Below are positions 9,604 through 32,200 of a DNA stretch of 64,000 bases, in pieces. The notes under the pieces were generated by a model. It searched no databases. It saw nothing but the letters and a program-made list of their open reading frames with translations, and was not told where the DNA came from. The DNA comes from Paralichthys olivaceus (taxonomy: Eukaryota; Chordata; Actinopteri; Pleuronectiformes; Paralichthyidae), in contig NC_091099.1 of assembly GCF_024713975.1 (NCBI RefSeq), forward strand, positions 15,605,501 through 15,669,500, in the 5' to 3' direction. Made by a program: the position numbers and the translations under genes. Within the stretch, counting starts at the first letter, position 1. The number at the start of each line of letters is the position of its first letter.

Positions 9604-12600
9604 TTATTTTGAGGTCACTTTGAGTTTAACTCTGCAGGTTTTCACTTTGCTGTTCTCCCACATATACAAAAGCCTTTTGTTGGGATAGTAAGACACCATA
9701 GCCAAAATGCCATTAGCTGGCCTTAAATCAAAACTTGCATCAAAAGGACTCTGTTTCTTCAAATCAAAAGCATATGCTACTCCTCTGTCCTTATCATCTG
9801 TGAAATAAAGCACACCACATACAATGAAAGCATTTCCTGCTTTAGTTGTGGGGTATGCAGTGTTGATGACAGACTCCACAGAAAATGTGTCGGGGTTGAG
9901 CTTTGCAACCATCGTGTTATCATCTGTATCTGAAGCAAAAATCACCCACAGTCCATTTTCATCCAGAGCAAACTTGAAGTAAGTCTTTGCGTTGCAGAAA
10001 AGATAATTCAGATTGTTGTATCTGCTCTTTGCCATAGTCAGAGTGTCAGTTCTCCCAGTGTTCAGGTCAAATCTGTAAAATCAAAAATGCTTAATATTAA
10101 TCACATGTCATATATCACAAACACATCTACAATTACTGATCAAGGGGTTCTTGAAATGTTGTTTTCATAGGAATGTGATAAACGGACAACCCGAAAAATG
10201 ATGTCTTGGGCCACAGGCTGTGACACAAGCATAAAAACATTTAGGAGACAATTACTGCATATGTAAAACACACACACACACACACGTGCATGCACGCACA
10301 CACTTACTTTAAAAGATTGTTTGTTCCTGCATTGTGGAAGTAAAAGGACCCCTTATAAACAACATGGCCACAGCCCTGGTAGAACCTCCTGACATCTATG
10401 GTTTTGTTGCTCATGCTCTGAGAGGAGGAAATGTTCTCATACTCTGCCAAAATTCGTCCTGAGGAACAAAAGTTCATATGTTAAAACCAACAATCATTCA
10501 GCAAACTCTGTGATTAAACTGTTTCTGTATCAGTCACCTGAAAAATGATCAGCCAGCCAGTATCGACCGTTGTCCAGCAGCGATGCATCTGACATCCAGG
10601 CTCCAAACGTGCTTCTCATTTTGGTGGCTCTCTCCGAACATTTGATATTTTTGATATGGCACTCTAGTGAATAAAAACATGAATTTAGTATCGATGGATA
10701 CATACATACATATTTAGATAGATAAGGTTATTTTTATAATTTTTTCTAACCATTATTTGTCCATTTCTCACTGTCTGTCACATTGATTTTATTGGCAGTC
10801 TGGAGTGGATATGAAGAGTCTAAAGGGGAAAAGACAATTCTCTTCTCATTATTCTTTTCATTAAGTTAAAAAAAGATTGTGGATGTTTATTTTTTTTATC
10901 TTTGAATAAATTAAATCTTGAAAATAATAAATAAATTCTAAATGTGCCTAAGTCAATGCTAAAAGCAAATACATGACTAAAGACAGTTTCCTGCCATTTT
11001 CCATGGGTGTATCAATGACGTTTCCACTGATATTGAAAGTGTTCATCTTTTCAGTCAGTTCAACAGAGAGAGGAGCTGTAAAATAGAATGAAACATATAT
11101 AATGTAGATATAACACAGATAGATGTGTATATAATGGTGTTATATTGCAACATTAAAGCAGAGTCTATCATACTTGTTAATAATTCCAGTGGTGCCCTTG
11201 TAACAGTCTCACTCTTGGTATCATTAAACCTGTGGTGGCTGTTGTCTTGATGAAATGATTCTGACTCTAGAAGATAAAACAGTATTGAGATTAACATGAT
11301 TTATTATTTATTTTGTTAAAGTTTTGTTTTCAAGTTTCTCTGCAGCTCAAACATGTTGTTCACCAGGTTCCACTGTTGAGTCAGTAACGTGGTATTTGTC
11401 AGGTGGACGTGGTGTCGGTGTCACGTTCCTTGTGTTGCTTTCAATCCAGGTGTCCTGTCTGTTGTCTGGACGAGGTGATACTGAGTCTGGGGAAAATAAA
11501 ACAGGATGAGGTCGACCATAATTCTCTAAATAAAACAATGGCTGTATGAGGTCATGCAGTTCAGCCATTCAAAATGCTAGTATACCAAATCTGTTTGTGT
11601 CTAGAAGCTAAACATACAAGTGAACATTGGTCAATACTGACACTAAATGCAGGACGTGCAGACAGTTTCTAACCACTTTTCAATGAGGCAACATTATTTT
11701 CCACCTGTTAGAAATTTTACTGCTGCCTCAGTGATGTTTCCTGTGATGGAGTCTTTCAAGGTGTCGTGGTTGTTCTCTTGATGAATTGATTCTGACTCTA
11801 GAAGGTAAAATAGTATAGAGATTAATATGTTTTTTATTTAAATATAATCAAAGTTTGGCTTGTCTTTAATGTTCCCCTGTAACTCAGTCTTGTTCTTTAC
11901 CAGGTTCCATTGTTGTCTTTAGAAGATTCTTGGCATCACTAACATTCATGTTGTCAGGTGCACGATGTGTTGATGATTCTGAAGAAACGAAAAGGTCAGA
12001 TTCAACAAAAAATACACAGACATTAAAATACCAATAACATTCATTTACTTGTTATAACTGTGCTTAATTGTTGTGGAGTGTATAATTCGAAGTCTTAAAT
12101 TACAAAGTTCACTCACCAGTTTTTGTCCATCTCTCATTGCCAGTAAAATTCAGCTTGTTGTGTCTTGAGTCTAAAGTGATTAGATGAAAATTACTTATTC
12201 ATATTTTCTCATATGTTACTATACATACAGTTGTGTACTATGACTAGTGAGCAGAAGCACAACTAAGAATCATTTCCGAAGATTTTCAATTCAATGGAAT
12301 GGAATGAAAAAATAATTCAGCATTTAGAAGATAAAGGTGAATTTTAAACATTAAGTTGAATAAGTCGACACTGTATCAAATACAGTACATACACAGTAGT
12401 GCGATAGTTCCTTACCACTTTTCATGGGTGTTTTAATGATGCTTCTATTGAAGGCGTCACTGTTTTGGTCCTCAGAAAGATGAGCTGTAGTGTGAAACAA
12501 GACATTTAAGTTTGTGTCTTCATGAGGTGTCGACACATTTAATTTAAATGCAAGTGACTAAAACAGGATGTTTTATAGTTATAGTGAATTTAATCAGCAA

Positions 12601-15600
12601 CACAGGATTCTGTTCATGATATTTTAATGATTCTGTAATATTCCCTCTTTTTGTATAATTTAAGCTGCAAATTCATATAAATAAAAGATATTGTAGTTGT
12701 TTTAAACTATTACAAAACCTTTAATATTAACTTTAATTGCTTCAAACCATATCTGTGGTCTAATGCATATTTGAATATCCATTAACCAGTACGGGTGTGT
12801 TGTTGGATGTAAAATATCTATAATATAATAATTTTTGTGCAGAGTAAATATCATACTGCTGTTAATGTATTTGGAAGAAATTCATCTTGTAAATATTAAG
12901 AATGATTTACTGGTTTGCAGTGAAGAGAAAACTGCTGAAGCTAAATAGTCAATATCAATACAAGTACAGTTTCTCACCATTTTCCATGGGCTCATCAATA
13001 ATAGTTCTGCTGCCATTGACTACATCTCTGCTTTGGTTTGCAGAGAGTGGGGCTGCAAAATAAAAAAGAACATAATATAAAATGTTTCTAAGTTATGGTC
13101 ACTCATTTTATGCAGAATATTCAAATCAGTAATTCTAACCTTTTAGTAATTGTACTGGTGTTACAGAAATATTCTCTGTGTGTGAGTCATCCAAGATGTT
13201 GTGGCTGTTTTCCTTATGAAGTGACACTGACTCTAGAAAATAAAAGGTACACGGTTTAACATGTTGTTCTGATACAGACAAAATGTTATATTTTATACTC
13301 TTTATTTAATTTGGATGGATTTTGAATACAGGACTTTTTATAGTACTGTAATTTTTTTTAATATTGTACTGATACTTTTAGTCCGGTAAAGAATCTGAAT
13401 ACTTCTTCCACCACTTCAGTGTTTCAATCTAAAATCCTTCTCTGCATACTTCATGTGAGCGTAAGTGAATAAACAGGATGCCTTTCATTTCCTCCCAACA
13501 TAAATAAAGTAAAAATAGGTCATTTTTGAGGAATGGGTCCGAAAGCAAGAAACGTTTGTTCCCTCTGATGACACATGGACTGACAGAGCAAAAGAACAAA
13601 AAGAGGATTGCACAAGAATAGAAAAGAGAGTTTGAAAATCTGACTATAAATGTCAAGATTCTAAAACACAGCCATGCCAAAACATTATCTTTAGCAAAGG
13701 ATTACAAGTCATTAATACTTTTTCTGGTATTGAACCACTTCATGAGTTAATGAAGTTTTCCAGTAACTGAAACAATTGCTCACCAGTTTTCTTATCTATG
13801 TTTGTCAACCTCTCTGAGTTTGTAAAGTTCATGACATCAGCGGCTTCATGAGCTGCACGTGGTGTTGGTGAAACTGTGGAAAGAAAGATAACATGGTTTG
13901 ATGTTCCTGTCACATATGTGTGTTTCATGAATGAGATCCAGTATCAGTATTCCAAACCTGTTAATATTTCATCTGGAGACTCTGTAACATTCCTCGTGTT
14001 GGTTTCAATCCAGGACTCATGTCTGTTGTCTGGTTGAGGAGAAACTGACTCTGTAGAAACTAAAACAGAAAGAGGTCAACTATATGTGTGGTCATACAGT
14101 AGAGTCAGATTTCACTGATAATATTAAGGTATCTCAACATTAGTATTTAAGAGTGTGAAGAAATAAATGTGGAATAGGATGTAATAAAAGCAAACTGTCA
14201 GTAACATCCATTTAAAATGTTTGCATTATTAACTGGTCAGTATAATGATAATAAATACTGGACATAGAGTTTGACAGTTTCTCACCATTGAGATATGTTG
14301 TATGACTGATATTTCCACTGTGTTTGAAGGCATCACTGGTGTGACCCAAGTCTCCATAAGGTAGAGCTGTAGAATAAAATCATATATATTCAAAGACTTA
14401 TATTATTATGCAAAGCCTCTAGTTGTGACACAAGCAACAAACATGGGGTATTTGATGATTACAATTTAAACATATTTCTCACCTGTTGATAATTTTAACG
14501 GTGCCTCTGTGACATCTCCTGTGTTGGTCTCATTCAAGGCGTTTGTGTTGTGTTGCGAATGGAATGATTCTGAGTCTAGAAGAGAAATTGATGTTGAGCT
14601 TAAAATATACTGGCATTGCTTTCACCTCGTGAGTCTGTGTGTTTGTGATCACGTTAGAATGTGTTCATGAGACTGTGGCCAAAGGCAAACCACAGAATTG
14701 CAACCATGCAAGATGCACAGATGAGACTTTACAGGAGTGTATTTGAGATCAACATGAAGTCCATGTTTTAAGGTGGGTGTGGTTTGACCCCTTGAGTACT
14801 TGTGAAATAATGCAGTAATTATTACTGAGTACCAATAGGAAGTTTTTTTCTTCAGTCTCTCTGCTGCTCTAAATAGTTCTTTACCAGGCTGCATTTGTGT
14901 GTTGAGTAGTTTCGCAGAGTCGGTAACGTTCAAGACGTTTCTGGTTTCAACGGGTGGATGCGATGTTGGTGATTCTGTAATAAGAAAGATAAGTTTAAAA
15001 CAGAAGAAATGGTGAAGACACATTAATTAACTTAAGACTTCAGTCACAAAAACAAATGATCAAAGTCATGGATTCATATAACAGCTGTTCTCCTGAATCG
15101 TTTCCCACCAGTCGTGTTCATTGTTGTCCTGTTTTCTGTGTCAGTTTCATTCAAGTTGTTTCTGGTCGGGAAAGGAGACGACGCTGAATGAGTAGAGAGA
15201 GAGAAATAGATTTTAAATGTTATGTTTTTGTTTTTTTCTTAAAACTTTCAGATTGTTATGATAATGGATGCTAAGATGCACAAGAAAAGTCCAGGGCTAC
15301 ACCAGCCAATGGTCACAGCAAAGACAATATTTCTCCATTGTCGAAAATGTTATTTATTGAATAATATCATTATGTTGTTACTTATGTATTTATTCTGGGT
15401 GAGTAATCCTGCAATAAAGAAGCAAAACTTTGTGGATATTTTAAAGACAAATTCCAGTATTATATTGTTCATATTTACTGTGTTCTCGGCACTGTGGGGG
15501 CTCTGAGACTTTTATGTTGGGAAATGAAATTCACAGCAAACATGAAAGAAAAAATAATTTAAATTATTCATATTAAACTCAAATTAAGAAAGATTTGATT

Positions 15601-18600
15601 TAGAGTTTTCTCTTGATGAGGATGACTTTGAACTCTTGACCACAGTATCTTTAAAATCCTGTTTACGACGCTGATGACCATTACCTTACCAGCCTGAAAC
15701 ATTATATTTCGTTATATTTTCGTTATATTTTAGTCAAAGAGATCATTCTTTTTATTTTGCAAATTCAAGGTGACCACAGCCACACCAGCAGGTCTAGATG
15801 ATTGTTGATACTCAAAACATTGGCGTCTACGGTCTTCTGTCATTTCTGCAAAGAGGTTTTTAGCAGTGACGATAAAACATACTGGTTGAGAGTAGATGAG
15901 ACGTTCTTACTCATCAGCTTGTTGGTTTGATGAGCGTGTCTGCCGATGGTTCTGTTTCTCACTTTATTAGGATTACATGCAGGTAAGTTTGTACCAGGTG
16001 GACCAGGTGGACCCGGTGGACCCGGTGGACCCGGTGGACCCGGTGGACCCCTTGGACCTTACACACAACACAAGTCAGACATGTAAAACACACCCCAAAA
16101 AAATACTGTTGGTTAAATACAAGAGCTGCTACAACAACAACAACAAACAGAAGACAAGAAGGAAAGACTTAATGTGGGCTGCTGTGTGAATTTGGGATAT
16201 TTTAAAGCATAGGAATAGAATTAATATTAAACCCAAATCTTGTAAAAAATAATAGAGGATTCGTGAGTATATACAACATAACACATAACATAACACAATA
16301 AGATGTAAAATATGGTAGAGCGAGCCTTATAAATCAAGTATAAAAGAACCCCCCCCCTTGTAAAACTATAATTTACTCATAAAACAAAACCATTTTTATG
16401 ATTAGGTGAAAGGTTTTCAGATCGAGCTTTGGGGGAATGTTAGATGTTGTTTTACTGACTTGAAGCAACATCTTCCTTCTGTTAGACACATTATCAATAT
16501 CAGGTTCAAGTATCATTTCGTCTCTCACCCTCAGTGAGAATGTCGTTGCAGGTTTCGTCTTTCAGTCGAGGAGGCCCATGGTCTCCTTTGGGTCCTGGTT
16601 CTCCAACTTTACCAGGGGGTCCTTCAGAATATATTGATAAGTTCATTAGTTCATTTGTTGAAAATAATTACACAAGAGGACAATCGTGTGTGTTTTGTAG
16701 GGATTTTAAAGTGCTGAAACCTTTTCCAAGTGAAAAACAGAAGTCAGTTAATGAGTAAAAGACAAACAAATTGCCCACAACAAACCACAACAAAACTCAG
16801 CATCATTAATGTGTAAACAGTCCAGTAAACAGCTGTGTGGCAGCTATGAACAGAGTGTATTGAAGACAGTGAGTGGGATGCTCATGTAGTTACACAATGG
16901 AGGACTGTTTCAAACTAGACTGACTTCTGTTTCTGAGTTTATTCCCTTTCCTGTTCCACACCTCCACATGGATCGATTATTAGATTTGCGTAAAACCAAC
17001 ACATCTCTCACCTCTTCTCCCTCGTCTCCCCTCCATACCCGGCTCTCCCTGTGCTCCTGGTGAACCAGCTCTACCTAACAGGCAAAAGTACTTTGTTATG
17101 AATTAACCTTTGTTGATTTCATTTCATGTCATGAATGCATTAAACTAACAATCTGTGTTTTTACCTGGAGGCCCAGCTGGACCTGGGGAGAAAAAGCAAA
17201 TAATGTAATCACACATACTGATCACAGCAGAGGCACCAGTATCTATTCAAATACAGTTTTGAAATGCACCTATTAAACAAACCCCTCTGGAGCTGCACAG
17301 GTCCATGAGGGACTTGACCTGAAAAACAGAGACACAATGTTAAATGAGTATCGAGTGTAGGAACGCTGACAAACTGAAGTGTCCTGTTAGAGGAAGCTTT
17401 GCAAAACCACTCATTCACACCCTGACAGCTGAAACTGTTGCATGTCTCTGTATGTTATTTATGTTAAATGTCAAGTATTGAATGTTACATGTTTGTACAT
17501 TTATGTGTTGAAAAAGCTCAAATGCCCCGAGACAAATTTTTCCTAAGAGAGACAAAAAAAAAACGTATCCTAATCTGTTTTATACATTAAAGATTATATT
17601 ATGTTATCTAATATTTTTTCACCCAGATAACTAGCTTTTCACACTGCTGCCCTCTGGAAGGCGCTACAGGTCCTAAAACCTCAAAGTAGATTTAAAGAAT
17701 TTAACTTTTAATTTTAAGTGCAATAATATTCCAACTGAGAAATATTATTGTGTGCAATATAACTGAGTACATATTGGTACATATACTCTGTTTTAATACC
17801 TCTTTTTTTTTTTCATTTATTGTTTGTTTTTATATTTATTCATTAGACTATAAGACTGTAATATGTCTATTTGTATGTCAGTATCTATACCACTGGGATA
17901 CAGCTACTGGTTGTACAATGTGCAATGACACTGAAGGCTTCCAATTGAATTGAATGTCTTGCTTAAACAGCTGATAGCTTAATTCAGAGAGTCATTTATT
18001 GATGATGATAAAAATGTAAGTTCCCAGTCCTATATTTTTGTCAAATACTTGTGTAGCAGAGGTGAATGTGTTGTCACAATATTCAGTATGTATAGAGGGA
18101 AAAGCTCTCAGAGGATATGAGTACAGCTGAGGGTGGAGCAGGTCACCGTCATGCCCCGGTGCTCAACAGTACTCATCCAGGGAACACTCAATGAAAAAAA
18201 ACACCCCTTCTTAATCGCTGCAACAGACTCCTGGATTCTTTGCATTTCATGAATGCTTCTTATCCCAACAGGGAAAAACAGAGGAAAGGTCTCTGTGAGA
18301 AAAGATTCCTCCCCTGTTCTCTGTTGTAGTAACAGCAATCAGAACAACATTAATGAGTTTTTTCTAAAGTACAGTCAATGAACTTGTATATTCACAATCT
18401 CACAAAACAGCCCATATTAAAGCATTTTAGTATCTTACAGGGACCATGGAGTATGTCATCAGCATCAGCATGTCCTTCTCGTCTCGACTTTGTGTCTGTT
18501 CCCCCTCCTGGTTCCTCCTGCTGCGGTGGAGCGTCTTCAGCTCTGCAGCCTCACCATGGTCCGTGGACATGATTCCCGCCTGCAGCCTGCAGCTCTGTGA

Positions 18601-18777
18601 CAGCTCCTGGATCTGTCCGTCCAACCTGAGCAGCTCCTCTGACAGATCCTTCTGCCGAACCAGCAGAAACACGAGACAGAAGGTCAGGATCAGCAGCAGC
18701 ACACACATCCCCACCAGCAGCACCTTCCACGCGTGGAAAACCCCACTTTTCTCCTTCATATCTGTGGCCTGTCGCAT
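9604..18777 (-). CDS. gldn: Gliomedin: type II membrane, collagen and olfactomedin protein with expanded stalk
   Basis: In mammals gliomedin is a Schwann-cell ligand that clusters sodium channels at nodes of Ranvier through neurofascin and NrCAM. Exons: 18439-18777 (membrane anchor, residues about 18-40, then the conserved DMLMLMTYSMVPV motif), 17270-17318 (SLMDLCSS..GVCLIG), collagenous 17165-17182, 17012-17074, 16529-16621 and 15995-16057, sixteen stalk exons listed separately (10751-15183), then olfactomedin exons 10538-10663, 10308-10458 and 9604-10072 (CHIKNI, YQGCGHVVY, FALDENGLWVIFA). Phases close at 2721 nt, 906 aa, against about 551 aa in human; the excess lies in the stalk. The start ATG at 18777 precedes the anchor; the in-frame sequence further upstream lacks an ATG and may be 5' UTR. 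Identity is firm. Individual stalk exons need transcript support, because all are phase 1-1 and could be skipped freely. Confidence 0.92.
10267..10303. repeat. (CA)n microsatellite beside a gldn donor site
   Basis: A run of CA units, partly broken by GTGCATGCACG, lies in the last gldn intron. It ends a few bases from the donor of the olfactomedin exon 10308-10458 on the minus strand. Confidence 0.8.
10751..15183 (-). repeat. gldn: Array of 16 duplicated phase-1 stalk exons in gldn
   Basis: Exons 5' to 3': 15109-15183, 14885-14974, 14483-14575, 14286-14366, 13958-14050, 13784-13873, 13140-13232, 12978-13052, 12416-12484, 12117-12170, 11901-11978, 11705-11797, 11364-11486, 11174-11266, 10995-11075, 10751-10819. 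Each length is a multiple of 3 and each starts and ends in phase 1. I see three related types. Type A is 93 nt, consensus near ESESFHQDNSH..NDT..VTEAP..LLTG. Type B is near APLS.NQS.D.FN.S.ID.PMENG. Type C is near ESPT.RAP..LNVTDS..L..T..PG. Order: C C A B A C A B B C C A (A+C fused) A B C. Every exon carries at least one N-X-S/T sequon. Total 1350 nt, 450 codons. Confidence 0.8.
15995..16057 (-). repeat. gldn: Gly-Pro-Pro exon with 9-bp tandem repeat in gldn
   Basis: On the minus strand this exon reads GPR followed by six GPP triplets, encoded by a nearly perfect 9-bp unit (GGTCCACCG). It is 63 nt, phase 1 to 1. It is the last collagen exon before the stalk array. The plus-strand reading (VDPVDPVDP) is a shadow of it. 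Unit number may vary between individuals because the DNA repeat is so pure. Confidence 0.88.
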
Positions 18778-20505: not shown

Positions 20506-23500
20506 ATGCTGCCGCTGGACACCTTCACCATCGGCCCCATGGTGGTGGACACGGTACACGGGGTCACCGTTTTTCTGCTTCTTCTTCTTCTCCTGCTGCT
20601 GCTCTTTTCTGCCTGGAGCAGAAACCCATCACACATACCAGGTGAGACTGCTTTCATTGATTTCTCATTATTGTGTCATGCACATTATGTGGTCAGCCTA
20701 AAACAGACGCACAAGACACCATTGTGAAAAAGAGCAAGTACAGGAAAAGAGAGAAAGAAACAAGAGTTGAAGTATCAATAAAAAGAATTCAAAAATACAT
20801 TTAGAATCAAAGGGAGCCAACTTATACATATTAAAATTAAACAACCATTACATTTTAAACAGACATTTCATGTTATATTGATTTTGGATACATATTTAGT
20901 AATTCAGCTTCCGTCTGTAGCCCATGGAGAATGGTGTAATATCCTCAAAAAGAAAAACCTTCTCATTGGCCCTGTTTTCAGAAATGCTTAATGCTTAACA
21001 GGAAACTATTGTGTTTTAATCAACTGCTTTCCTTTTTCTCCTAGGTCCTTCTTTCCTGGCAGGACTCGGCCCTATTCTCTCCTACTCCAGGTTCATCTGG
21101 ACCGGGATTGGAACGGCGAGCAACTACTACAACAACAAATATGGCAGCATTGTGCGGGTGTGGATCAAAGGCGAGGAGACCCTCATTCTAAGCAGGCGAG
21201 TCCTTTTCATATGAAACACCTTTGCAGCCACAGTTTATCCAGTGAATCTGGGAATGAGGTCACGTCACAGTCTGGCTTCACTCGCAGGTCGTCAGCAGTG
21301 TATCACATTATGAGGAGTCCCCACTACACTGCCAGGTTTGGGAGCAAGAAAGGGCTTCAGTGCATCGGGATGAAAGGGAGGGGCATCATTTTCAACAGTG
21401 ATGTCTCACTCTGGAAAAAAGTGAGGACCTACTTCTCTAAAGGTGAGTGATTAGTATAGACTGAGTGTTTGCCTGTCTTGATTCTTATTATATTATATTT
21501 TTTATATTATATTCTTATTTTTACTTTTTTATAGGGTTTAATTTAAATTGTATCTTTCTATTTAGTTTAATGAATCTAATATTACAGGTTTTCGTATCAT
21601 TCTGAATTTGTATGAGATTTTATTTTATTTTTTTGATATCATCCATCATAATTCAACCACGCTTTGTTTTAATTTTTTTAATATTCTATTTTATTCAGAA
21701 CAACATACTTGATTTAGTTAACTTCAATTATCCTTTTTAATAATTACATTTTTTTAAGCTGTCAAGTTCCAGAATGTATGTCCTACTAGGTGGGAGTTTC
21801 ATGGAATTATTATTATTATCATTATTATGTCATCTCTCATTCTATACATTCTATATTTAACATTGAATAAAAATAAATCCAGCTCCTGCAGACTCAAAGT
21901 GGATCAGTTATAATTGTAGTTATTTGTTATCTTTGTTAACAGCCCTGACAGGCCCCACCCTCCAGGGGACAGTGGCGATCTGTGTGAGCTCCACTGCCAA
22001 ACACCTGGACGGCCTGCGGGAGATGACTGACTCCTCCGGCCATGTGGACGCTCTCAATCTGCTCAGAGCCATAGTGGTGGACATCTCCAACAGGATTTTC
22101 CTCAGGGTGCCATTAAATGGTCAGCTGAACGCTCAACGTCTGTAAATGTTTCACTCAAATTGTGAACAGTATTTCCTGCCTGTAAATATTTTCCACTTCC
22201 TGCTCCTGACTGTTTTCTTATTCATAATAACAGAGAAGGAGTTGCTGATTAAAATCCAAAACTACTTTGAGACCTGGCAGACGGTTCTAATAAAGCCTGA
22301 TATATTCTTCCAGATTGGATGGCTCTACAATAAGCACAAGAGAGCGGCGTAAGATTCTCACACTCACCAGTGAAAACACAACATTTGTTTTTGTCTTCAA
22401 CTTAAACTGTTTTGTGTCAACAGTAAAGAGCTGCAGGATGTGATGGAAAGCCTCCTTGAAATGAAAAGACAGATTATTAATGAAACTGAGAAGTTGGATG
22501 AGGATCTTGACTTTGCAACGGAGCTCATCTTGGCACAGGTAGCTCTCTCCCTCTCTACACTAACTGTGTCTTGGAGTTACAGTTTGTGTTTGCTGTGTTC
22601 GGATCACCTTCTTTTCTCTGTGCTGCAGAACCACGGTGAGCTCTCAGCAGATAACGTCAGGCAGTGTGTGTTAGAGATGGTGATCGCAGGACCCGACACA
22701 CTTTCCATCAGCCTCTTCTTCATGCTGATGCTGCTGAAACAAAACCCAGAGGTGGAGCTGAGGATAGTGGAGGAGATGAACACTGTCTCCAGTAAGAGCA
22801 TTTAAAAATGTCATCATGCGACGGATAAATATTGAATTAATCCAAAATCCATCACTGCTGCTTTTTCACTTCCAGATGAAAAAGGTGCTGAAAACCTTCA
22901 CAGTCAAAGCTTGAATGTGCTGGAGAATTTCATCAACGAGTCTCTGAGGTTTCATCCTGTGGTTGATTTCACCATGAGAAAAGCTCTAGAGGACGACGTC
23001 ATTGAAGGCACTAAAATCAGGAAGGGAACCAACATCATTCTCAACGTGGGTCTCATGCATAAGACTGAATTCTTCCCAAAACCCAAAGAGTTCAGTCTGT
23101 TGAACTTTGACAAAACTGTAAGTATCACATCTCTCTCTCTCTTATCAACATTATCAGCTGTTGCTGCTATCATTAATAACTTCTTTACATCTATAATCAT
23201 AATCACTCTTATTGTTTTCATTATAATAATTAGTCTGTCAGAGCTGAAACATGATGATACACAACTGTTCCATCTCCTCCCCATTTTCGTCTGCTCACCC
23301 CAATTGCTCCAGGCAGATGGCCGTCCACACTGTCTGGTTCTGCTAGAGGTTTCTTCCAGTTAATGAGGGAGTTTTTTCTCTCCATAGTCGCCAAAGTGTT
23401 TTCTCATTGTGGGAACTGCTGGGTTTCTCTATAAGTTTTAAGGTTTGAACTTTACTATGTAAAGTGCCTTGAGATAGATAGTGTATATTTTGATTTAGCA

Positions 23501-23845
23501 CTATACAAATAAAATTGAATTCAATAAAATTGAACAATATGTGGCTCTGACAGAACAAACTAATACAAAATGTATGTCTCTACCTCCTCTGTTTGGCAGG
23601 TGCCCAGTCGTTTCTTTCAGCCCTTCGGCTGCGGGCCTCGCTCCTGTGTGGGAAAACACATCTCCATGGTGATGATGAAGGCCATCCTTGTCACCCTGTT
23701 GTCTCGATACACAGTGTGTCCTCGTCAAGGCTGCACCCTCAGCAGCATCAGGCAGACCAACAACCTGTCACAGCAGCCGGTGGAGGACGAGCACAACCTG
23801 GTCATGCACTTCATCCCTCGGACCAAGCCCCACAGTCAGATCTGA
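20506..23845 (+). CDS. cyp19a1a: Aromatase, cytochrome P450 19A1 (ovarian-type likely)
   Basis: Endoplasmic-reticulum P450 that converts androgens to estrogens, central to ovarian differentiation in fish. Exons: 20506-20641, 21045-21195, 21288-21442, 21943-22119, 22234-22348, 22424-22538, 22629-22791, 22876-23117, 23600-23845. Phases close at 1500 nt, 499 aa (human 503). Visible features are an N-terminal membrane anchor with ten consecutive Leu (residues 24-33), the proline hinge after IPGPSF, the I-helix [12 protein letters not shown], the ESLRF (ExxR) motif, and the haem-binding loop [13 protein letters not shown] with its Cys ligand. The segment [13 protein letters not shown] and the neighbour gldn favour the ovarian paralogue over the brain form (cyp19a1b), but the paralogue call is from memory. 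Intron 2 uses a GC donor. It is the only plus-strand gene in the window. Confidence 0.96.
21196..21287 (+). other. cyp19a1a: GC-AG intron 2 of cyp19a1
   Basis: The intron is 92 bp with donor AG|GCGAGT and acceptor CTCGCAG. The frame requires exon 2 to end with two bases (AG) completed by the G opening exon 3, giving ILSR-SSAVYH. A GT donor three bases downstream (CGA|GTCC) would shift the frame and destroy the protein. Confidence 0.88.
23286..23535 (+). mobile_element. 3' tail of a fish retroelement in cyp19a1 intron 8
   Basis: The stretch CAGATGGCCGTCCACAC..GTTCTGCTAGAGGTTTCTTCC..AGGGAGTTTTT..GTAAAGTGCCTTGAGAT..GCACTATACAAATAAAATTGAATT is a very common 3' end of short interspersed or non-LTR elements in fish genomes (from memory; family name not certain). 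It is 5'-truncated and ends in the usual AATTGAATTCAATAAAATTGAA repeats. Confidence 0.75.
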
Positions 23846-29200: not shown

Positions 29201-32200
29201 ACAACAGCGTGGGAGACTGTCTGTCAGCGATGCTGCAGGAGGACATGCTGATGGGCAGGGACAGGCCGTATGGCTCCAGGCTCAACACTGAGGCACACAA
29301 TAGAGTCAGAACAATTCAAAACAAGGCAGCTCACATTGTGCCAAACATGCAACAGTCTGATCGCTTTCAACTGTTTTTACCTTTTGCCTGAGCTAATTCC
29401 TCCTGCCGTTGATGAGGAGGCTTGTATGGAGCAGCGCCAGCAGCCAACGCCTCCGAGACGAACCCATCCAGAAACGACAGAGAGGAATCCACCTTGGAAA
29501 CAAAATATCAACACAACAGCAAGTTTAAACTTCTCCTTTAATCAGGAGGAACAGGTTCTTTGGTACATTTCTGCAGGATTTTAATCAAAGACGTCATATT
29601 TGAGGGTTTGCAAGTACCCTACATCTTTATCACTGAACACTTTCATGACAGAAAAAAAATCACATTACATTACATTTGTATGCATTAAAAGTGTTATGGT
29701 TACTTTCTTTTCAGCTGACCGATACTGAATACTGTTGTGTGGTAAACCCCTCCCTTCACATTTCAGACATGCTAAGACAGCTGCACTGAGACGGCTGAAT
29801 TTATGATCCCTTTTATCGTGGTTAAATACCTTCATTAATCTAATTGTGTGTGTCATGGAGGGCAAGTGGAAGCAGGCTTATTTTCCAAACCATCACATAC
29901 TGAGAATTTACCAGGGAGGAGGTTGAGGTTCCTCCTCCCTGGTAAATTCTAAGTGTGTGATGGTTGGGAAAATAAGCCTTTTTTATAAGCCTAAATAAAT
30001 AAGCCTAAGCCATTGATCTTAATCTGCTGCGGTTACGAGAGTAAAATCATTTTCGGGTGTTTGTGACATCTTTAATCAAGCGTTGACAACATTACTGGAC
30101 ATTTAAAATCAAATTAAATGTCTTCATATTATATCTAGAACCATTACAATCATAAAATCCAAACACTTAAACATAATTATTGTAATTCTGCAGCCCTTTA
30201 TAAATGCTACCTCCAGAGGCTCCAGGCCATCGTCTCGAGGTAGCACCCTGGCTCGTAGTTCAGAGTCTTGGCTGAGGTGCTGCAGCTCCTGAGCCCTCTG
30301 TCTCAGCACTGTGTCCATTGAGCTGATGTATGTTTCAGAAACCTGCTGAGCGACAGCAACACTTGCTCCGCCCTCGCTGAGTTTGGTCATTGCCATGAGG
30401 ACCCAGGTCTTGGTTTCGCTGCTGGTTTGCTTCATATCTAACAGTTTTCCCAGAAGTCGCAGGACTGTGGCTGGTTCAAGTTCCTCCCTCAAGTGAGAGT
30501 ATTCACCGAGGACCTGAGCAAGACAGAGGGGGCAAAGCCTAAGAATGTGTTTTACAGGTAAAGAAAGAGCTTGTGCCTTACAAGTAAAAGTGTTTCTGTA
30601 GGTTTCAACAATTTAAATGTCAGACTTTTTGAGACAATAATGAATGAAATTCAACACATACGTCAAGTACAACAGATTATCAAGAATATGAAGAGTCTAA
30701 GAATTTCTAATTCATCCCCATTATTGAAGATAAGGTAAAGTAGCCCCGTAGAGAATAATCCTCCAAACGCCATGTTGTCTCACAAACTACAGACAGAAAC
30801 AGTAGGTGTTCATATTCTTTCTCACAGCCAAAGAACATATACCGAAGAATATTCCAACCAGGGTGTTTGTAGAGAAAATATACACATTACAAACTACATG
30901 CCACGTAAAAACGTTTATTAAAAAAGTGTTTCTAAGTGCAACAGAACCTTCACTATAAGATCACTGAGATCTTCTCAACAGGCACTTATCACCTTCTAAG
31001 AGTCATATTGATCTCTAAACCATTAAAATGATGGAACTTTGGTATTAAGCTGTAGTTTCTAAATGAGCTTGTTTTTAATTTCCTGTAGTTATGATAATCT
31101 TGCCCAATGTCAGCTGGGATTATATACAGGCCCCCCATGACCTAAAGAGGATAAGTGATATAGATAATGTATGGGTAGCTATGCTAACTGGCATTAATTT
31201 AAATACTGTATTCCTATCTATTCATTTATTTAAATATTCTTCCTTTTTTCGTCTGCAGGTTAGGTAATTAGTGGAGTGTGCTAAATCAAATGCTGTATTT
31301 CTTTTCCTTTTTCCCTTATTGCGCTCATTTTTATTACATAACACTTATACAAAGTGCTCAACATGCAAACGGCACTCACCCAGCTGATGACTTGGAGGAA
31401 GCGCTGTGGCAGCTTGCCAGGCTCTCCTCGCAGCAGAGAGACATATGAATCCACAGCAAACCGCCTCAGCTTCCTGTCCTCCTCCACACTGTCAAATCCT
31501 GGGCCATTAAAGAGACATTAAGCGTCAAAATCGAATCAATATCAGGATCCATTTACTGAACAGCGATGTCACACCACGGGGACACCACAGATTAAATGGT
31601 GGTTATCTCACCCTCTGACAGCAGTTTGAGGAAACAGTTAGGGATGTCAGGCTGCATCATGTCTCCACCCACTGAGAACACTGTGTTCATGGTCTCGATG
31701 AACCATTCATTGTCCGGTGCATATGTATAATGTTTATAGGAAATATCAACAATAGGAAAAAACAAGGTATTACAAATTTAAAGAAATGACCACTGCACGA
31801 CCATGATAAAGTTACACTAGAATAATAATTAATGATCAGAAACACTGGCAGGATGTGGATTTACAGACATTCATAATAATATATGAAATATAGTTGACAA
31901 TGATTTAAGTATAATTTCCTTATTGGATCACTGAATATTATAGCAGGTACTGTGGTTTGTTAATGGCTGTTATTTCAATATTTAGATCAAAGTATTTCTA
32001 CTATCATGTTTATTTTATATAAGGAGTTTACCGTTTTCCAGGTGCAGTGGATCACCAGAAAGAAAAAAAGTGTATAGTATCTCACTGAGAAGGATATTTT
32101 TCTGCAAGTTCTGCCACCTTCCCCACCAGGTCAATAGTAGTGTAGTCATCTGTACTGACGCGCAGAAACTCCAGCATCTTGTCCACAATGACCATGACGT

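Follow-up and report, generated by a model that had tools for sequence, protein, structure and literature searches.

Sixteen related symmetric exons form the stalk of one of two gliomedin genes in the flatfish Paralichthys olivaceus

The 64,000-nucleotide stretch of Paralichthys olivaceus DNA analysed here (contig C7:15605501-15669500, the window) contains a complete gliomedin gene, which we call gldn-long, in which a stalk encoded by 16 short, mutually related exons separates the collagen region from the olfactomedin (OLF) domain. The run of exons had been proposed in an initial annotation made from the letters of the window, and it is confirmed here. A search of the genome (588 Mb, 25 contigs) also uncovered what is new in this report, a second gliomedin gene on contig C1, gldn-short, with a single 84-nucleotide phase 1-1 exon at the position of the stalk. 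We consider it probable that, after genome duplication, tandem exon duplication gave gldn-long a disordered, cysteine-free, N-glycosylated spacer; the exons, their families, their open frame and the unexpanded second gene are the parts of this explanation that are seen directly.

The stalk exons share one open frame and resemble one another

All 16 exons were located at 10751-15183 on the minus strand, between the collagen and OLF regions; their lengths (54-123 nucleotides) are multiples of 3 and each has phase 1 at both ends. Together they encode 453 residues, in agreement with the roughly 450 first estimated.

15109..15183, minus strand: stalk exon 1, type A
14885..14974, minus strand: stalk exon 2, type A
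14483..14575, minus strand: stalk exon 3, type B
14286..14366, minus strand: stalk exon 4, type C
13958..14059, minus strand: stalk exon 5, type B
13784..13873, minus strand: stalk exon 6, type A
13140..13232, minus strand: stalk exon 7, type B
12978..13052, minus strand: stalk exon 8, type C
12416..12484, minus strand: stalk exon 9, type C
12117..12170, minus strand: stalk exon 10, type A, the shortest (54 nucleotides)
11901..11978, minus strand: stalk exon 11, type A
11705..11797, minus strand: stalk exon 12, type B
11364..11486, minus strand: stalk exon 13, a fusion (5' part type B, 3' part type A)
11174..11266, minus strand: stalk exon 14, type B
10995..11075, minus strand: stalk exon 15, type C, with a GC donor
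10751..10819, minus strand: stalk exon 16, type A

The claimed reading frame has no stop codon in any of the 16 exons, while the other two frames have 24 and 36; when segments of the same lengths were placed at random in neighbouring introns, a mean of 2.0 of 16, and at most 8, were free of stops (5000 trials). Comparison of the interval with itself, which had been put forward as a check, gave 15 self-hits at E<=0.01 and none in each of 30 shuffles, and among 11 further stretches of the window, taken in forward reading, 9 gave no hits and two gave 4 and 1. Equal phase at both ends, a length that is a multiple of 3 and mutual similarity, the marks of tandemly duplicated symmetric exons, are thus all present. 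The repetitive character of the region might also be expected from misread intronic repeats or an assembly artefact, but splice sites, frame and phase are mutually consistent, and the stalk copies are about 65-84% alike, a divergence greater than collapsed or doubled reads would show; we regard an artefact as very improbable.

Exon families and duplication history

The three exon types in mixed order that the initial annotation described were recovered as families A (exons 1, 2, 6, 10, 11 and 16), B (3, 5, 7, 12 and 14) and C (4, 8, 9 and 15), but exon 13 does not belong to a single type. Its 5' part is closest to exon 5 (81% over 102 nucleotides) and its 3' part resembles exon 11. Types A and B look related, as a profile of type A also picks up exons 13, 5 and 3 (E 0.0006-0.002). 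Exons 11-12 and 13-14 are a block duplicate whose match continues through the intron (79% over 155 nucleotides); most other self-matches in the stalk stop within a few tens of bases outside the exons. With exon 13 scored as B then A, there are three occurrences of the order A-B-C (P 0.010 by permutation, for a triplet that was picked only after the exon order was known). Two weak matches in the introns may be remains of further copies:

11662..11695, minus strand: perhaps a remnant of the end of a type C exon, in the intron that follows exon 12 (E 0.13, weak)
12628-12667: possible dead exon in the intron that separates stalk exon 8 from exon 9, resembling the 3' part of type B (E 0.85, weak)

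Synonymous differences (pS) among the copies are 0.41 for type B, 0.67 for A and 0.57 for C, and between the OLF domains of gldn-long and gldn-short 0.86, a saturated value. Since the type B figure lies well below that between the two genes, at least the type B copies postdate the gene split; whether types A and C also arose after it is less clear.

Every stalk exon carries an N-glycosylation sequon

The expectation of at least one sequon in each stalk exon held for 16 of 16. The 453 residues contain 21 sequons, compared with 11.4 +/- 2.8 when the stalk is shuffled as a whole (at least 21 in 6 of 5000), and shuffling within exons left a mean of 8.6 exons, and at most 15 of 16, with a sequon (5000 shuffles). 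In a neutral-drift simulation, a crude one (a single substitution scheme on a star tree) in which one member drifts to the observed divergence, 8.0 +/- 2.1 exons kept a sequon and 16 was reached in 0 of 1000 runs; when drift was slightly milder, leaving about 70% identity to the starting member and not 63%, the mean was 9.2 and 16 was reached in 1 of 1000 runs. No columns of type A are better conserved than the N and the S/T of the sequon, which 6 of 7 type A pieces have; the seventh, the 3' part of exon 13, lacks it, but the B part of that exon has a sequon. Each type B exon has exactly one sequon, at either of two positions, and 3 of the 4 type C exons share a sequon position that differs in exon 4.

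The remaining stalk sequence appears to be under weak constraint at most. Pooled ratios of nonsynonymous to synonymous differences (pN/pS) are 0.56 for type A, 0.80 for B and 0.68 for C, and between exons 12 and 14 the exon is conserved no better than the adjoining intron. The stalk has no cysteine in 453 residues, a net charge of -29 and a FoldIndex of -0.13 (compared with +0.09 for OLF), which fits a disordered spacer that matters through its length, its composition and its glycans. What seems to have been retained is frame, phase, composition and the sequon.

gldn-long and gldn-short as a genome-duplication pair

A search of the genome with OLF (41 pieces) located the second gliomedin at C1:24284234-24284916. 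gldn-short has 10 exons and encodes 568 residues, and only its 84-nucleotide exon, 28 residues long, stands between the collagen exon and OLF. The initial annotation had noted a near-doubling of gliomedin relative to human; the nearer comparison, the compact gldn-short (568 residues against 909) in the same genome, had been missed. A short collagen-OLF linker such as that of gldn-short is not found in gldn-long, where 16 exons encode 453 residues instead of the 28 of a single exon, and we take the long linker as a change of architecture rather than the short one as defining the gliomedin family. The OLF domains of the two proteins are 53% identical, and against solved gliomedin that of gldn-short scores 303 bits and that of gldn-long 206 bits.

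Both genes stand head-to-head with an aromatase gene. In the window the start codons are about 1.7 kb apart, and the neighbourhood beyond gldn-long contains:

20506..23845, plus strand: aromatase gene (97 bits to solved P450 19A1), labelled cyp19a1b because ap4e1 is its neighbour
30124..30612, minus strand: open frame on the far side of the aromatase gene, matching AP-4 epsilon (ap4e1; 63 bits to solved AP-4 epsilon-1)

Four frames were read as ap4e1; none had a Pfam hit, and the one put to a structure search matched AP-4 epsilon-1. On C1 the aromatase gene (90 bits) is on the strand opposite to gldn-short, with start codons about 4.3 kb apart, and the row at C1:24242000-24320000 reads tnfaip8l3-like, aromatase, gldn-short, dmxl2-like, so that its head-to-head pair mirrors that of the window. 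The TNFAIP8-family gene lies beyond the aromatase gene (its frame had no NCBIfam hit, as expected from a prokaryotic library), and beyond gldn-short are Rav1p_C (dmxl2-type) matches of 24.8 and 35.1 bits (cut-off 27 bits).

The accessible part of PMC9141715 gives gldn, dmxl2 and tnfaip8l3 as neighbours of cyp19a1a and ap4e1 as a neighbour of cyp19a1b, and traces the two aromatase genes to the teleost genome duplication. These neighbours and that source place C1 on the cyp19a1a side and the window on that of cyp19a1b, the brain aromatase; the opposite assignment, with cyp19a1a in the window and cyp19a1b on C1, was ruled out on the same grounds, and an ovary reading of gldn-long was withdrawn once the window aromatase proved to be on the cyp19a1b side. 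In the same portion of PMC9141715 gldn is named beside cyp19a1 and cyp19a1a, not cyp19a1b; here it adjoins aromatase on both sides of the duplication, the cyp19a1b side included. Judged by their matching duplicated neighbourhoods, gldn-long and gldn-short are a teleost genome-duplication pair, and together with the OLF scores this suggests that gldn-long expanded and diverged while gldn-short stayed closer to mammalian gliomedin.

Gene model and identity of gldn-long

gldn-long runs on the minus strand from a start codon at 18777 to a stop at 9604, with 25 exons and 909 residues. The exons outside the stalk, most of them from the gene-model script, are:

18439..18777, minus strand: exon 1, with the start codon, a hydrophobic membrane segment (by reading) and a furin-type RSRR motif, DMLMLMTYSMVP
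17270..17318, minus strand: exon 2 (gene-model script)
17165..17182, minus strand: collagen exon of 18 nucleotides (gene-model script)
17012..17074, minus strand: collagen exon (gene-model script)
16529..16621, minus strand: collagen exon (gene-model script)
15995..16057, minus strand: last collagen exon, short form with a weak donor; the long form would reach 15911
15911..15994, minus strand: in-frame stretch by which the last collagen exon may be extended, with a phase-1 donor, one sequon and one cysteine
10538..10663, minus strand: first olfactomedin exon, phase-1 acceptor, its ECHIKN aligned with ECLIKS of gldn-short
10308..10458, minus strand: second olfactomedin exon (gene-model script)
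9604..10072, minus strand: third olfactomedin exon, with the stop codon (OLF search, gene-model script)

The gliomedin identity given to the gene at the outset is well founded. Pfam finds Collagen (42 bits) and OLF (210 bits), G-X-Y triplets form runs of 15 and 7 between the membrane segment and OLF, and an aromatase gene is adjacent; among solved sequences the three best matches of the OLF domain are all gliomedin (204-206 bits), followed by noelin (110 bits). The RSRR motif, a putative furin site at residue 85, was found by pattern match, as was a furin-type motif in gldn-short. Three cysteines in the OLF region of gldn-long (residues 670, 780 and 900; window 9604-10663) have no counterpart in gldn-short and could possibly form an extra disulfide or leave a free thiol.

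Splice sites

Scored from nucleotide frequencies, the donors of stalk exons 1-14 and 16 lie between 4.4 and 10.9. The donor of exon 15 is GC and scores -0.6, whereas its family members 4, 8 and 9 have GT; with such a donor, and with the frame kept, skipping of exon 15 is plausible. gldn-short likewise has a GC donor (GAGG/gcgagt), at the end of its fifth exon (L034:1349), the penultimate collagen exon. The collagen exon before the gldn-long stalk has a weak donor (1.6) at 15995, and an alternative donor at 15911, in phase 1, has a score of 3.9 and would lengthen the exon by 28 residues. The exon may end at 15911 rather than 15995. Similarity of the 28-residue extension to the tail of gldn-short was not significant (P 0.11).

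Discussion

We propose that, after the teleost duplication, gldn-long gained a run of exons where gldn-short keeps one short phase 1-1 exon, and that the run grew by tandem duplication of blocks of one to several exons, often A-B-C, with one exon fusion. If translated, these exons would form a long, acidic, disordered segment without cysteines to which nearly every exon adds one N-glycan, and exon number would set both how long the spacer from collagen trimer to olfactomedin heads is and how many glycans it carries. The BMP-1 cut of mammalian gliomedin was reportedly located between collagen and OLF (by Maertens in 2007). In mammalian nodes only secreted gliomedin, cut by furin and BMP-1, was detected, and release of OLF promotes oligomerisation and incorporation into the matrix (accessible part of PMC3810605). 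The idea in the initial annotation that the stalk sets the reach of the OLF head from the glial membrane is doubtful, given this secreted nodal form and the RSRR motif kept in gldn-long. From the same two points and the position of the stalk we would expect it to determine how the OLF heads on a collagen trimer in the matrix are spaced, how flexible they are and how they are coated with glycans, and the added segment could alter release or spread of the head there rather than its reach from the cell surface.

The same exons could have multiplied to no purpose: in a relaxed copy, symmetric exons might be tolerated because the frame is kept and the segment is disordered, and their length might never have come into use. 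The high pN/pS, the poor donor of exon 15 and an OLF domain that resembles solved gliomedin less closely than that of gldn-short does (206 and 303 bits) are what such drift would leave behind, but 16 of 16 open frames, an intact 909-residue frame, and sequons in all 16 exons, an outcome not reached in 1000 neutral-drift runs, make it unlikely in our judgement. It is possible, if on the unlikely side, that stalk length is instead tuned by splicing, with exon sets that differ by tissue or stage and yield a family of lengths. The phase of every stalk exon, on whose symmetry the initial annotation was right, would allow this and the very uneven donors (-0.6 to 10.9) would suit it, but the argument is drawn from the gene sequence, and tandem duplication too needs symmetric phase to be tolerated.

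The two genes may also divide labour, with brain as the main site of gldn-long, beside cyp19a1b, and other sites such as the gonad left to gldn-short, beside cyp19a1a. Consistent with this are the head-to-head order of gldn-long and cyp19a1b with about 1.7 kb between their start codons, the brain bias of cyp19a1b in flatfish and ovary bias of cyp19a1a (accessible part of PMC9141715), and the higher expression of gldn in female tuna gonads (PMC10449831, seen in part), which would suit the copy beside cyp19a1a. However, the tuna data, in that part, do not state which gldn copy was meant, the accessible text of PMC8067493 expects no GLDN-CYP19 interaction and, from NCBI, no gonad expression, and adjacent genes need not share regulation; mammalian GLDN, moreover, also adjoins CYP19. 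We hold such a division to be unlikely as well. Quite unlikely, and offered as speculation, is a bolder form of the spacer proposal in which the gliomedin on the brain-aromatase side would have turned into a new matrix protein in the nervous system of fish, its reach and sugar coat counted out by how many one-glycan exons it has, with selection on exon number and sequon and hardly on the remaining sequence.

Mammalian GLDN and gldn-short share with gldn-long the membrane segment, furin-type motif, collagen repeats, OLF domain and adjacent aromatase gene, and gldn-short differs in its one 28-residue stalk exon against 16 exons and 453 residues. Symmetric exon duplication in extracellular proteins is said to be known from Patthy's 1-1 modules and from Letunic in 2002; there, as in gldn-long, phase 1-1 exons are tandemly duplicated with the frame unchanged, but the 1-1 modules are folded domains, whereas the gldn-long units are 18-41 residues long, probably disordered and sequon-bearing. 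In CD44-type stalks a row of small in-frame variable exons produces a glycosylated spacer. gldn-long has a similar row and a predicted glycosylated spacer, but usually has one N-sequon per exon and three interleaved families, and alternative inclusion is hypothetical in it. No account of duplicated gliomedin exons was found among the literature matches listed, which cover subscription journals little.

Two gliomedins of common origin with stalk pieces of 28 and 453 residues amount to a paired natural experiment in one genome, and allow a test of whether exon copies count out how long the spacer of a matrix protein is and how many glycans it bears; the gldn-long stalk is a case of sequence drift in which every exon retains a sequon. 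A caution also follows, since 'gldn' in fish expression studies may mean either of two very different proteins.

Other OLF matches in the genome

An OLF match at C4:7498-7968 lies inside a 2660-residue open frame near the end of the contig, which is odd for an OLF gene and possibly reflects a stop-free repeat. At C12:16083134-16087750 two near-full-domain OLF matches, each in one open frame and on the same strand, stand about 3.9 kb apart and are likely a tandem pair.

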